DNA of 64,000 bases, from positions 1,364,001-1,428,000 of the forward strand of contig NZ_CP050497.1 of assembly GCF_018336815.1 (NCBI RefSeq). The letters are read 5' to 3'. The stretch is from Treponema vincentii. GTDB lineage: Bacteria > Spirochaetota > Spirochaetia > Treponematales > Treponemataceae. The notes beneath the pieces are model-generated. The model had not been told where the DNA came from, made no database searches, and was given only the letters and a program-made list of their open reading frames with translations. A program made the position numbers and the translations under genes. Below, one piece after another: positions 498 to 19,283 of the stretch. The first letter of the stretch is position 1; every line of letters starts with the position of its first letter.

Positions 498-1097
498 CCT
501 TTTGAAATATACGGAGCATCTACTTCGTTGCTGCGCAAAAATAAATGCTCAACGTATCAGAACCGCCACGGATGGCGGGGGAGTAAATCAGTAACGCGTT
601 TAGACGTAAGGCTAAACTCGTAGCCACAGAATGTACAGGACGTACATTCTGTGGCGTGTCTCCGCTTTATTTTTGCTCGCGCCTCGTATCTGCGCCGTCT
701 ATTTCAAAAGGCTTACGGCAAATGGTGTTTCAGAACCGACATGGACGTCGGTGGTTTTATACAGTAGCGAGATTTGGGCTATGCACAAATCTCGTCGTTA
801 AAAAGCGTACAGGGACGTACGCTTTTTAACAGTCTATTTCAAAAGGCTAACGGAAGGGGTGTATACCGCGTGCGGCTTCTGAAAATGCTCAACGTATCAG
901 AACGCCCAAGGACGGGCGTAGTTCCAAGCAGAAGCAAGTTTGCTCCTGCAAACTTGTAGCCTAAAAATGAACAAGGATGTTCATTTTTGGGTGAGGATGT
1001 CCGTGGTTCCGTGCAGTAGCGACGTTTTTGCACAGCAAAAACTCGCGTCCAGAAGTGTACACGGATGTACACTTCCGGACAGGGTATTTTCAAAAGG
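498..1097 (+). repeat. Tandem array of GGA-loop hairpin modules (noncoding; candidate CsrB-like RNA)
   Basis: This gap between leuS and the convergent lipoprotein gene holds no convincing gene. It begins with CCTTTTGAAATA (498-509), and the inverse TATTTCAAAAGG recurs at 700-711 and 835-846, with TATTTTCAAAAGG at 1085-1097, so it reads as end-to-end copies of one element. Each unit holds H1 (563-578, 735-752, 903-918), H2 (598-617, 768-794, 935-956, 1024-1042) and H3 (623-655, 797-830, 960-991, 1047-1080). H3 stems are 13-14 bp and differ in sequence, but all keep a GTAC or GAAC core around loops AGGAC, AGGGAC, AAGGAT and ACGGAT. H1 loops are ACGGAT, ATGGAC and AAGGAC. All GGA loops are on the plus strand, the same direction as leuS. 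The CsrA reading is inference. Confidence 0.8.
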
Positions 1098-1320: not shown

Positions 1321-3901
1321 CTATTCATTTTTTGTCGTGTAGCTGATGGTAATGGTGCCGCCTTCGGCATAATCGGAATCTACGCGGATCCAACACCTGT
1401 TACTACCCTTGTCGTCCTCAAAGGTTCTCTTCCCGATTTTCCACTCATCTACGATCTTGCCTACAGGAAGGTCTTTGGCTTCAATGCTGATTTGCGTTCT
1501 TTCTTTCACCTCTGCATCGTTAGAAAGCGTTTGTCCCTGTCCGTACTGCTGCCATATTCTCACCGTCATCTTTGCTTCATTAAAGCTCAGGGTAAACTTC
1601 TGCGTGGCCTTTGTCGTATAGCTGATGGTAATGACACCGCTTTCGGCATAATCAGGACTCACGCAGAACCAGTGCCGGTTTCCACCCCAATTACCCTCAT
1701 CCTCAAAGGTTCTCTTCCCGATTTCCCACGTATTTACGATCTGTCCTATCGGAAGGTCTTTTGCTTCAATGATGATACCGGTCATTTCTTCCACCTCTGT
1801 ACCTTTTGAAAGCGTTTGAGCCTGCCCGTGCTGCTGCGGTATTTCCACCGTCATCTTTGACTCGTCAAAGGTAAGGGTAAACTTCTTAGCGGCCTTTGTC
1901 GTGTAGCTGATGCTAATGGTGTCGCCCTCGGCATAGTTTGAACCTACGTGGAACCCCCACCGGTTTCCGTTCCATTCAGCCTTATCCTCAAATGTTCTCT
2001 TTCCGATTTTCCACGTATCTACGATCTGCCCTGCCGGAAGGTTTTTGGCTTCAATACGGACTTCCGTTCCTTCTTCTACCTGTGCACCGTTTGAAAGGGA
2101 TTGCTGTGATCCGTCCTGCTGCGGTATTTCCACCGTCATCTTTGCTTCATTGAAGCTCAGGGTAAACTTCTGCGCGGGCTTTGTCGTGTAGTCGATGGTA
2201 ATGGTGCCGCTCTCGGCATCGGCGGACTGCACATTATACCAACACTGGTTCTTATCACTGGAAGTGACGGTGCTCTTTCCGATTTTCCACTCATCTACGA
2301 TCTGATCTGTCAGGTTTTTAGCTTCTATACTGAGTCCTGTTCTTTCTTCTACCTGTGCACCGTTTGAAAGCCTTTGTCCCTGTCCGTACTGTTGCGGTAT
2401 TGTTACCGTCATCTTGGCTTCGTCAAATTTCAGGGTAAACTTCTGCGCGGGCTTTGTCGTATAGCTGATGGTAATGACACCGCTTTCGGCATCGGTGGAC
2501 TTCACAATAGCCCAACATTCGTCCTTATGCTCGGGAGGAAAGGTACGCTTGCCGATAGTCCACATATCTACGATATGACCTACCGGAATGTCAGTGGCTT
2601 TAATACTGATTCTCGTTCCTTCTTCCACCTGTGTACCGCTTGAAAGTATTTGCCACGGCCCATCTTCCTTACGCTCTCGCACCGTTATCTTTGTTTTGTC
2701 AAAGTTGAGGGTAAACTTCTTTGCGGCCTTTGTCGTATAGCTGATGGCAATAATACCGCTTTCGGCATCCTCGGCCATTACGGTATACTTACAGTCATTT
2801 GAATCAGCTGAAATGTTCCGTTTCCCGATTTTCCAAGTATCTACAATTTCCCCTGTAGGAAGATTTTGAGTTGCAATGTTCAATTTCATCCCAACCGTCA
2901 GCTCACTGCCGTCTCTAACGATACCGCCCTCGTTGGTAAATACTTTCACCTTTTCCTTATCAAAGGCAATTATCAATTTGTCACTTTTGACAGTATATGC
3001 AAGCGCTACACGATTACTGCTGTCAGCATCAACTTTGCGTACGGTATGGATAAGCTCAGACCCCTCTGCCGGAACGATTGTATTTCCTACTTTCCATGCC
3101 TGTACGGGAGTGCCGACGGGAAGCCCAATCGCAGTCAGTCGCAGCCGTGTGTGTTCTTGAACTGTCGAACCGCTCGTGAGAGTATTCCATGTTCCTGCTT
3201 GCTCCGCTTCAACCTTTACCTGTGCAGCATCGAAATTTATTTTGAGATTGACGATCTTTCTTTCAGTGTAATAAATTGTTACGATATTATTATCGTTAGC
3301 ATCGGCTTTGCGCACGATATAGGTAAGTTCATGCCCTTCTGCCGGGATGTTTGTCTTTCCGACCGTCCATGATTGTACGGTACTGTCGGCTGGAAGCCCT
3401 ATCGCAGTCAATCGTAGCTGAGTGTTGTCGACTATTTCCGATCCGGAACTCAGCGGTTTCCAAGCACCTGTAGTAAGCGCTTCCACCGTAACCTTTGCCG
3501 TATCAAAATGTACTCTTAACAATGCAGCTTTATTTTTAAGGGTATAGGTGATGTGTGTTTTACCGTTGCTGTCGGCATCTTCTTTAACGATAGTATGGTT
3601 GAATGTTTCCGTTGCTGAGGCAACCGTTTTTCCGTTAATTTTCCATTCTTCAAGTGTCTTATCGGATGGTATGTTTTTTGCTCGTATTTTTAATTCGGCA
3701 CCGATTTGGATTTGATCCCCGTTTTTTACGAGCGTTAACGTATCGTTGTTTTTTACTTCAACTTGTATAGTAGCTTCATCAAAATGCAGTTCAGTTACGG
3801 GGGGGGGGGGTATCCGATAACTTGGGGCATCCGGTAAATAGTACCGGTAGCACAGCCACTAATCCTAATACGAAAAAGCTTGTTAATCGTTTTTGTTTCA
3901 T
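1321..3901 (-). CDS. Phase-variable lipoprotein with nine ~75-95-residue InlB-B-like repeats (frame OFF in this sequence)
   Basis: The true start is the ATG at 3901, with GGAG 7 bases upstream. It encodes a lipoprotein signal (MKQKRLTSFFVLGLVAVLPV then LFTGC, Cys25). After SDT the frame enters a run of 12 C (12 G on plus, 3799-3810) and stops two codons later. Eleven C would join it to the long downstream frame, open to 1321, giving about 859 residues. That frame holds nine tandem repeats of pattern KFTLxFDxxKMTV...VEEGTxISIEAKxLP.GxIVDxWKIGKRTF...ESGxITISYTTK, resembling divergent InlB B-repeat (beta-grasp) modules. The last five repeats are most alike. A surface-exposed adhesin or antigen is likely, by inference. 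Repeat content and lipobox are seen directly. Confidence 0.8.
3799..3810 (-). repeat. 12-G homopolymer (phase-variation tract)
   Basis: Twelve consecutive G on plus (C on minus) lie about 90 bp inside the lipoprotein gene, right after codons for the mature N-terminus. Reading on minus, ACC CCC CCC CCC CGT AAC TGA gives a stop. The repeat frame is restored with 8, 11 or 14 C. Long poly-G tracts are the known slippage substrate for phase variation in treponemes (for example upstream of tpr genes in T. pallidum). Confidence 0.85.
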
Positions 3902-3932: not shown

Positions 3933-4353
3933 TGTGCGAAATTTTGCTTAAAATTTCGCACATTTTTCCGGCAAAAGGGTAAACGCATCAGGTAGAGTAG
4001 ATAAAAACCGCAGAAAAATTGAGACTGTGAGACCATTTGAACCATCTTCAACTGTTGTACATCCGTGTACCTCTCAACCGATGTACGTCCATATACATCG
4101 GTTGAGGACAAGTTTTGTTCCAAAACTTGTTTCTGACCTATCCCACGCCCATCCTTGGGCGCATTGATGGCGAGTTTTGTGCGTGCACAAAACATCGCTG
4201 CACTGACAGGAAGTCAGTGGTTCCAAACAGTATCGAGTTTTTCATCAGAAAAACTCGAAGCTAAACAATGTACAAGGACGTATATTGTTTACCGTGCCTG
4301 CGGGTGTTTTTTGTGCGCTCCTAGCATCTACGCCGCCTCTTTTCAAAAGGCTT
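3933..4353. repeat. Hairpin element with two divergent GGA modules
   Basis: The left edge has a 13-bp hairpin (3933-3962, core GCGAAATTTT) and the boundary word GGGTAAACGCATCA (3977-3990). A minus-oriented module follows: H3 at 4073-4106 (loop TATGGACG on minus), a short GTAC-ACGGAT-GTAC at 4057-4070, H2 at 4108-4130 and H1 at 4146-4161 (loop AAGGAT). A plus-oriented module comes next: H2-like palindrome 4174-4193, H1 4201-4219 (7 bp, loop AGGAA), H2 4233-4258 and H3 4262-4291 (12 bp with one G-U, loop AAGGAC). The tail ends in CAAAAGGCTTACGG. About 235 bp are nearly identical to the element at 13.5 kb. One module points at the lipoprotein start, the other toward the ATPase gene. Confidence 0.75.
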
Positions 4354-10631: not shown

Positions 10632-10936
10632 CCTTTTGCAAATATGCAGCATATCTGCGTTGTCGCATCGCCAAAACTATACATCCTTGTATAGTTTTGA
10701 CTGTGAGTTTCGCATACAGACGAAACTCACTACTGGTTAATACAAGCGGCGTCCATGCCGCTACTGCAAACAGTCCTCGACGTATCAGAACCGCCACGGA
10801 CGGCGGTGGTTCTATGCAGTAGCACGTTTGCATTGCAAACGTGTAGGTAAACAATGTACAAGGACGTATATTGTTTACCGTGCCTGCGGGTGTTTTTTGT
10901 GCGCTCCTAGCATCTATACCGTCTATTTGCAAAAGG
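10632..10936. repeat. 305-bp hairpin element with perfect 13-bp inverted ends
   Basis: CCTTTTGCAAATA (10632-10644) and its exact inverse (10924-10936) bound the element. Inside is a minus-oriented module: H3 10672-10699 (11-bp stem, loop AAGGAT on minus), H2 10703-10730 (10 bp) and H1 10745-10762 (loop ATGGAC on minus). A plus-oriented module follows: H1 10791-10806 (loop ACGGAC), H2 10823-10843 (9 bp) and H3 10846-10879 (14 bp with one G-U, loop AAGGAC). After the last H3 there is a T6 run 14 bp on. No protein-coding gene is supported here. The size, inverted ends and lack of genes fit a MITE. Confidence 0.75.
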
Positions 10937-13484: not shown

Positions 13485-13883
13485 GGGTAAACGCATTAGA
13501 TAGCTAATATCAAAATTCGCAGAATAACTGAGGCAGTGAGACCATTTGAACCATCTTCAACTGTTGTACATCCGTGTACCTCTCAACCGATGTACGTCCA
13601 TGTACATCGGTTGAGGACAAGTTTTGGAACAAAACTTGTTTCTGACTTATCCCCCGCCCATCCTTGGGCGAATTGACAGCGAGTTTTGTGCGTGCACAAA
13701 ACATCGCTGTACTGACAGGAAGTCAGTGGTTCCAAACAGTATCGAGTTTTTCATCAGGAAAACTCGAAGCTAAAAAATGTACAAGGATGTACATTTTTTA
13801 GCGATGCTATCCTTGGCAGTTCTGGTTGGACGAACTCACTTATTCTGCGGGGATGAAAAAACATAAATCTGATGCGTTTACCC
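13485..13883. repeat. 399-bp hairpin element bounded by GGGTAAACGCAT
   Basis: Twelve-bp ends GGGTAAACGCAT (13485-13496) and the inverse (13872-13883), with further inner symmetry (CGCAGAATAA 13518-13527 versus 13840-13849), define a MITE-like unit. A minus-oriented module holds H3 13582-13615 (14 bp, loop ATGGAC on minus), H2 13617-13639 and H1 13655-13670 (loop AAGGAT). A plus-oriented module holds H1 13701-13717 (loop AGGAA), H2 13742-13767 and H3 13769-13802 (14 bp, loop AAGGAT). The last core reads GTACAAGGATGTAC, the best match to the CsrA SELEX consensus. It separates the divergent MCP and ssnA genes, with one module pointing at each start. Confidence 0.78.
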
Positions 13884-15247: not shown

Positions 15248-15458
15248 TTTTTAATTATGAATTATCAATTCATAATTAAAAATGCCGGTATTCACAAGAG
15301 TATGCATCTGCCGGATACCTGGGCATATCTAAAAACTCGGTTAGATTTTTAGATATGCCCGGCGAGTTTTAATTTAAGTCCTTATAGTACAGTAACTTAA
15401 ATTAAAACATCGCAAATAAGCTTAAGGAAAACCTCTAAAAACTGAAGTTTTTAGAGGT
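15248..15458. repeat. Four consecutive long palindromes between ssnA and ygfK
   Basis: The 288-bp gap contains: a 16-bp AT-rich stem with 3-nt loop (15248-15263/15267-15282); a 15-bp stem GGGCATATCTAAAAA (15321-15335/15346-15360); a 14-bp stem GTTTTAATTTAAGT (15366-15379/15395-15408, outer GCGA/TCGC); and a 13-bp stem ACCTCTAAAAACT (15431-15443/15446-15458) with a 2-nt loop. No gene fits. The first could stop ssnA transcription. The others look like small repeat palindromes or processing sites. Confidence 0.65.
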
Positions 15459-18554: not shown

Positions 18555-18626
18555 AGTATTTTAAAAAACTGATTGGTTTTTAGAAATACCTCATCAGCAC
18601 AGCTGATAACGAGGTGAAAAAAATTA

Positions 18627-18660
18627 AAAGGCAACCGTATCGAAAGATGCGGTTGCCTTT
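18627..18660. terminator. Bidirectional terminator between ygfK and a convergent lipoprotein gene
   Basis: A 15-bp stem with one T-G wobble (18627-18641/18646-18660, core AAAGGCAACCG) closes a GAAA loop. Plus-strand reading gives TTTGTTT after the stem. Minus-strand reading gives TTTTAATTTTTTT. It lies between two convergent stops, 3 bp from the minus-strand stop. Confidence 0.85.
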
Positions 18661-18662
18661 GT

Positions 18663-19283
18663 TTACGGTTCCGTTATATTCCCCTGTGCATCAAGGTAAT
18701 ATACAGGGATCGCAACAACCTGCTCGCGATCGTTCCGCCATTTTGATTGCAATCCTTTCTGAAGGGGGCTATAATAAAAGGCCTTGCTACTTGCCTCACA
18801 GTGAGATGTCCAAAAATCTTTGCTGGTAAATTGAGCTATTTTTTCAGCCTCATCTCGTGAGGGGAGCCAACCACCCCGCTCAATACAGTATATAACTGCA
18901 GAATTTTTTGCAGTATGCAGTTTAGAATCGTTCGATTCAAATTCGCGTTTTAAGAAAATGCTGTTTTCTTTTCCGTCTCCCATATTTGAGCCTATGTTCT
19001 TTGTGCTTATATGACGTGAGCTGTTCAAATCCCACGGCATCGGCTCGGAAGGGGTTCCCATTGCAAGAAATCGCCACGATCCTCTACCTGTATTTTCCCA
19101 CACGATCGTTTTGTTGCCCACTCTATCACCTACGGAAAGAGATCTTTCAGGAACCGGTTCTGACGGTACGATCATTCCGTCAAACAAAAAACAGCCGTGC
19201 AACGTAAACAACATGACAAGAGCTGTCACTACCGGTGTTGCATAACGGAATACTAATAAACTCTTTAGCTTCAGTTTTTTCAT
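18663..19283 (-). CDS. Lipoprotein with a DUF1566/Lcl-like C-terminal half
   Basis: 206 aa. The N-terminus has a lipoprotein signal ending LFTLHGC (Cys31), after a long basic start (MKKLKLKSLLVFRYA). The distal half (SAVIYCIERGGWLPSRDEAE, then DFWTSHCEASSKAFYYSP and REQVVAIPVYY) looks like the Lcl/DUF1566 fold found in surface lipoproteins of many bacteria. AGGAG lies 9 bases before the ATG. The gene stands alone between a terminator and the copA promoter. Function unknown; membrane-anchored, probably periplasmic or surface exposed. Confidence 0.7.
   Translation of the reverse strand: MKKLKLKSLLVFRYATPVVTALVMLFTLHGCFLFDGMIVPSEPVPERSLSVGDRVGNKTIVWENTGRGSWRFLAMGTPSEPMPWDLNSSRHISTKNIGSNMGDGKENSIFLKREFESNDSKLHTAKNSAVIYCIERGGWLPSRDEAEKIAQFTSKDFWTSHCEASSKAFYYSPLQKGLQSKWRNDREQVVAIPVYYLDAQGNITEP

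Follow-up and report, generated by a model that had tools for sequence, protein, structure and literature searches.

CsrB, CsrC, RsmY and RsmZ are single discrete genes whose RNAs string together GGA hairpins that match the CsrA/RsmE consensus, and the hairpin array 3' of leuS in Treponema vincentii resembles them in carrying such a string. It differs from a CsrB/RsmZ-type sponge in that its unit is dispersed and its locus is not conserved in close relatives. The published consensus is (A/U)CANGGANG(U/A) (PMC6692469, PMC4353343), and apical CANGGANG hexaloops have been termed high-affinity (PMC4894983). According to the cited section of PMC4333381, CsrA-sequestering sRNAs had been identified only in Gammaproteobacteria as of 2014; outside that group, the same source names TwoAYGGAY and Bacillaceae-1, two Rfam families of unknown function with two CsrA-binding-motif matches each, as predicted CsrA sequesterers. 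In C. jejuni, which is without canonical sRNAs, FliW and flaA mRNA antagonise CsrA (PMC4894983, 2016).

A covariance-model search identified the leuS array as four copies of the Rfam family TD-2 (RF03162, clan CL00124), and these copies showed no structural difference from the family model. TD-2 was reportedly first described by Weinberg et al. in 2017; the CsrA-site consensus, GGA constraint, dispersal and high turnover presented here are additions to the family, part of which that description may already hold. Among the matches listed in the literature on TD-2, Treponema repeats, CsrA and sRNA, nothing was found on TD-2 or on a spirochaete CsrA sponge. TD-2 is like TwoAYGGAY and Bacillaceae-1 in having two CsrA-motif matches per RNA (PMC4333381, in the cited section), whereas those families come from other phyla and, in this comparison by motif and phylum, TD-2 adds a further hairpin, H2, and genome-wide repetition. 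TD-2 is also like REP/BIME elements, being a high-copy, mostly intergenic palindrome on both strands with some inverted pairs, but it has three hairpins per unit, GGA loops and no RAYT-type partner in seven genomes of the genus. We read TD-2 as a repeat of REP-like character and high turnover, in which CsrA-type RNA sites come in pairs. Its repeat nature is established, and binding of CsrA to its transcripts, suggested by the loop sequence, is on balance the likeliest reason for the sites.

The hairpin array 3' of leuS

The original prediction described seven hairpins with GGA in the loop on one strand, and hairpin and pattern scans of the window (the whole 64-kb stretch of DNA that was analysed) recovered all seven on the + strand at 563-1080, within about 520 bp and with the GGA strand sense to leuS. 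Three of these hairpins were of the H1 type (563-578, 735-752 and 902-919) and four of the H3 type (623-655, 797-830, 960-991 and 1047-1080). Perfect hairpins with arms of at least 9 bases numbered 22 in the window, compared with 0-2 in five mononucleotide shuffles, and 16 of the 22 lay in the leuS array and three further TD-2 clusters. The sequence RTACARGGATGT, with up to one mismatch, occurred 11 times in the window vs 0.45 expected, a count reached in none of 100 shuffles.

In each TD-2 unit, a hairpin of about 6 bp with GGA in its loop (H1) was followed by one with a longer stem and a plain loop (H2) and then by a second GGA-loop hairpin, of about 14 bp (H3). Copy 1 (562-659, +, 59.4 bits) contained H1 at 563-578 (GGA at 570), H2 at about 592-620 and H3 at 623-655 (GGA at 638), the last with arms of 14 bp. 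It was enclosed by an outer inverted repeat on the + strand, whose 26-nt left arm (498-523) was 85% complementary to, and paired in the predicted fold with, the right arm (686-711). Copy 2 (735-834, +, 73.9 bits) contained H1 at 735-752 (GGA at 743), H2 at 768-794 and H3 at 797-830 (GGA at 813), and copy 3 (902-992, +, 57.4 bits) contained H1 at 902-919 (GGA at 910), H2 at 935-956 and H3 at 960-991 (GGA at 975). Copy 4 (987-1084, +, 52.5 bits) overlapped copy 3 and was found only by the genome search, so that the cut-off of 48.7 bits was exceeded by three array matches when the window was scanned and by four when the genome was searched. It retained H3 at 1047-1080 (GGA at 1063) and had lost the left arm of H1, and the array therefore had seven hairpins rather than eight.

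Six more TD-2 copies in the window, overlooked by the original prediction, formed three inverted pairs: 4069-4162 (-, 49.9 bits) with 4202-4297 (+, 79.3 bits), 10666-10762 (-, 60.2 bits) with 10790-10883 (+, 70.3 bits), and 13578-13671 (-, 52.4 bits) with 13711-13806 (+, 85.9 bits).

The loop motif and its likeness to the CsrA site

The likeness of the loops to the CsrA site held when the loop was left unspecified in the search. The pattern TGTAC-N6-GTACA occurred at 86 sites vs 1 for a reversed-pattern control, and 82 of the 86 had the loop ANGGAN in one register, 17 of the sites matching RUACARGGAUGU exactly. The 406,759 bp around TD-2 copies held 245 perfect hairpins whose arms had at least 10 bases, mostly H3, and 135 of them carried GGA in one register; a closing C was present in 130 and the A in 132 of these 135, and all four bases occurred at both N positions, giving C-A-N-GGA-N-G. 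H1 was looser, with GGA in 137 H1 loops, 123 of them in the same register and 14 with another loop size. Of the 147 copies, 140 contained the core 8-mer CANGGANG and 106 contained it twice; only 22 had the exact E. coli SELEX sequence, a point against the CsrA reading. A CsrA-type site in TD-2 is established as sequence, and the unusually close match of the loops strengthens the CsrA idea as far as the motif goes.

Copy number and arrangement

The genome search yielded at least 147 TD-2 copies, 76 on the + and 71 on the - strand; this is a lower bound, as 150 of 699 candidates were scored and the window copies at 4069-4162 and 13578-13671 were missing from the 147. The copies grouped into 97 clusters, of which 29 held more than one copy, 40 had GGA hairpins on both strands, and 84 were free of ORF overlap by simple ORF calls, the other 13 overlapping an ORF. 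TD-2 copies were also observed within an ORF of 570 aa and another of 571 aa, whose flanks are similar (L016 and L079, both at about 2201-2294); they recall palindromes inserted in coding sequence. Among relatives, G043 carried 100 copies and G057 at least 150, and with at most 19 candidates scored per genome a TD-2 match was found in 115 of 195 family genomes, above the cut-off in 63.

Such an arrangement would suit a purely DNA-level selfish repeat, with GGA loops recognised in single-stranded DNA hairpins by a putative copying or recombining enzyme and their likeness to CsrA sites a coincidence. We regard this explanation as rather unlikely, and several lines of evidence fit it. The copies lay on both strands and in inverted pairs, and 9 of 13 head-to-head neighbours were 20-28 bases apart. 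Orientation relative to genes was random, with 36 sense vs 44 antisense in co-directional gaps by simple ORF calls (p 0.43), so that transcription entering from a neighbouring gene would miss the GGA strand of many copies, which counts against the CsrA reading. Against it, no RAYT-type Y1 transposase (Y1_Tnp, PF01797) was found in this genome, in six others from its genus or in the eight of genus g16, and the loop motif, if arbitrary, would need to coincide with the CsrA consensus even in which positions are free. A match to PF01797 was present in 53 of the 195 family genomes. A RAYT-driven REP was rejected on the absence of the transposase from the seven genomes of the genus. The original prediction had named a REP-like DNA function as its main alternative, and the anatomy of TD-2 does show a REP-like repeat; that reading and the CsrA-site reading are not mutually exclusive.

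Terminal inverted repeats, as a MITE of an insertion sequence would have, were looked for around the copies: besides the outer repeat at 498-523/686-711, inverted repeats scoring at least 14 flanked 9 of the 97 clusters, where swapped flanks predicted 4.9 and shuffles 0. Single examples of an outer frame exist, but the 97 clusters did not show a general frame around every copy.

Turnover among relatives

Copies of leuS were 94% (G043), 93% (G064), 92% (G057), 85% (G050) and 67% (G033) identical to that of this genome. In scans of the corresponding loci (L094-L098), TD-2 exceeded the cut-off 3' of leuS only in G057 (L094), and no match was found in the gap in G064, G043, G050 or G033 (L095-L098). 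The G057 gap held the outer palindrome together with TD-2, G064 the outer palindrome only, G043 and G050 another palindrome, and G033, by eye, neither a palindrome nor TD-2. At L071/L171, the same outer palindrome contained a TD-2 unit in one genome and lacked it in the other, and L085/L118 was a similar case. Such a distribution is typical of a repeat that moves or recombines, and the turnover at leuS and the gain or loss of a unit within one outer palindrome are further points in keeping with a DNA-level repeat. Together with the random orientation, the high turnover argues against a dedicated sponge gene and is compatible with a DNA-level cause.

Three orthologous copies (520648, 646091 and 1123980) were identical, though their nearby flanks differed by about 8-19%, and gene conversion may contribute to this identity. 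Three other orthologous copies were 18-23% divergent and look as if they had been replaced by a different copy. The flanks of clusters L030, L048, L078, L080 and L087 matched different stretches of G057, as if the copies were points of rearrangement.

Constraint on the GGA loops and the folded strand

Copies in which the GGA is lost and the stem kept, the case that the original prediction had set against itself, do occur, and they are uncommon. Both GGA loops were kept on one strand by 133 of 147 copies and by 139 of 150. A set of 22 copies from relatives, 4 of them from the same genus and 18 from others, kept GGA in 21 H1 loops and, judged by eye, in 20 H3 loops, with the exact CANGGANG register in 17 H1 and 14 H3; an automatic count gave 21 for H3, one of these being a GGA outside a flipped loop. 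In the remaining two, the H3 loop was flipped from GGA to TCC, a change that accords with a DNA-level repeat. At L005:1798-1898 and L186:2549-2645, the H3 loop read TCC, flipped within a kept stem, and the GGA of H1 was retained. A further 19 loci (L195-L213), covered by a pattern scan at the expected place, showed GGA hairpin pairs in some cases and not in others, and were left out of these counts.

The GGA was also constrained at the level of substitutions. Among 297 TD-2 copies, 79 disjoint closest pairs with 1-12 differences were formed, 78 of them annotatable, and GGA positions were changed in 3 of 468 cases vs 27.9 expected. The N positions were the most variable (71/311); the counts elsewhere were 6/155 at A, 225/3530 in linkers, 79/2183 in H3 stems and 68/927 in H1 stems. 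These pairs mix paralogs and orthologs, so the constraint includes any acting during spread. In the ortholog set (31 annotatable of 32 flank-anchored copies, with some sites entering more than one of the genome comparisons), GGA was changed in 3 of 186 cases, where the rate of the whole element predicted 10.6 (Poisson 0.007) and that of the linkers 13.2 (0.0009), which counts against a purely DNA-level repeat. Changes numbered 12/124 at N, 40/861 in the H3 stem and 17/368 in the H1 stem; constraint on the H3 stem was evident only in orthologs at most 12% divergent (9/721) and not across all 31. The GGA is not immune, as two of the differences, seen in the first 22 orthologous copies, were GGA losses in this genome, and its constraint could also act during the spread of copies, via recognition by a DNA-handling protein.

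Fold stability alone did not pick a strand, since the complementary strand of the array folded nearly as well (z -12.0 vs -12.9, each far better than 20 shuffles). In unique H1 stems, G-U exceeded A-C by 24 cells to 5 (p 0.0005), which may mark the GGA strand as the one that folds; since the covariance search behind these copies itself favours G-U, the excess is supporting evidence only. This tolerance of G-U in H1 speaks against a DNA-level repeat, though single-stranded DNA could explain it too. H3 stems showed no excess (14:12), as a DNA-level repeat would allow, and H2 stems gave 4:0.

CsrA and FliW

The presence of both CsrA and FliW in spirochaetes was confirmed for this genome, in which Pfam searches placed CsrA (PF02599, 73 aa) side by side with FliW (PF02623), in keeping with the CsrA reading. 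Matches of this CsrA to solved structures include 2jpp, which we take to be the structure of RsmE. The pair stands after an ORF that by eye resembles flgL, and a flgN-flgK-flgL-fliW-csrA cluster has been reported in T. denticola (PMC9481697, in the cited part).

A CsrA match was missing in 11 of the 195 family genomes. In two of these (G104 and G159) the contig broke off near fliW and a gap may hide csrA; the other nine were without a FliW match. TD-2 was present in five genomes with neither match: G153 (10), G008 (6), G170 (5), G040 (4) and G081 (3), of which G008 is 99% complete and the others at most 85%. Among csrA-bearing genomes the TD-2 count ranged from 0 to more than 147, G020 having csrA and no TD-2, and this loose pairing of TD-2 with csrA may weigh against the CsrA reading. 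The pattern GTAC-N6-GTAC was not enriched in G008 (41 vs 52 for the control); it gave 7 vs 27 in G184, with 33 TD-2 matches, and 27 vs 5 in G020, and as these last counts run against the TD-2 numbers, the pattern is a poor measure.

Proposed role and remaining alternatives

TD-2 is a palindromic repeat, dispersed, prone to recombination and arranged much as REP/BIME elements are, and in the reading that we favour its H1 and H3 both carry the CsrA hexaloop C-A-N-GGA-N-G, with the plain H2 between them. A copy read in the GGA direction would yield an RNA with two sites, enough for one CsrA dimer, and read-through of the four units sense to leuS could yield an RNA with room for three to four dimers. 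Together, the copies might then soak up CsrA from scattered positions or recruit it locally, rather than act as one sponge gene. Should CsrA bind TD-2 RNA, a family that Rfam lists only as sRNA would have a protein partner, spirochaetes would have an RNA arm of the Csr system, and a class of repeats would prove to carry the docking site of a regulator. TD-2 also offers a direct test of whether the free level of an RNA-binding protein can be set by repeats scattered through a genome. A bolder version, that the CsrA antagonist of this lineage is the repeat population itself, with hundreds of mobile palindromes acting as one-dimer docks in an evolvable, distributed sponge beside FliW, and with a CsrA set-point that shifts as copies are gained and lost, seems to us quite unlikely.

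Very unlikely is the explanation of TD-2 as bidirectional transcription terminators or mRNA 3'-end stabilisers. The strong stems, the mostly intergenic position and the 5 terminator-like sites vs 1.7 expected would suit such a role, but few T-runs followed H3 by eye among the matches listed, and the GGA would be left unexplained. The clusters lay in 55 co-directional, 24 convergent and 18 divergent gaps, with no clear preference for convergent over divergent ones (p 0.44). As an intrinsic terminator the array is a weak candidate, a sequence scan having found no U-tract terminator at its + strand end. Least probable is a dedicated CsrB-like sponge RNA transcribed through the leuS array, the original prediction taken in its strict sense: seven GGA hairpins with the CsrA consensus, closely spaced and sense to leuS, had spoken for it, but the sigma-70 consensus scan gave one promoter-like site vs 1.7 expected, on the opposite strand within leuS, no U-tract terminator was found on the + strand, orientation is random, the unit is one of at least 147 copies dispersed on both strands, and a dedicated locus was rejected because only G057 of five relatives has TD-2 there.

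Other features of the window

A weak match to STnc380 at 18570-18669 (33.8 bits vs a cut-off of 60) is probably due to chance. On the - strand, a 733-aa ORF at 1321-3522, with no Pfam family over the cut-off, contained 285-bp tandem repeats, in which the later copies shared 77% and 74% identity with the first. Several TD-2 regions also held a second palindrome that recurs, TGTGCGAAATTTT-N4-AAAATTTCGCACA, at 3933-3962 in the window and at L022 and L027, with variants at L017 and L024. A third, with arms of about 15 bp (GGGCA...CTAAAAA...TTTTTAG...TGCCC), recurred at 15321-15360 in the window and at L029 and L053.
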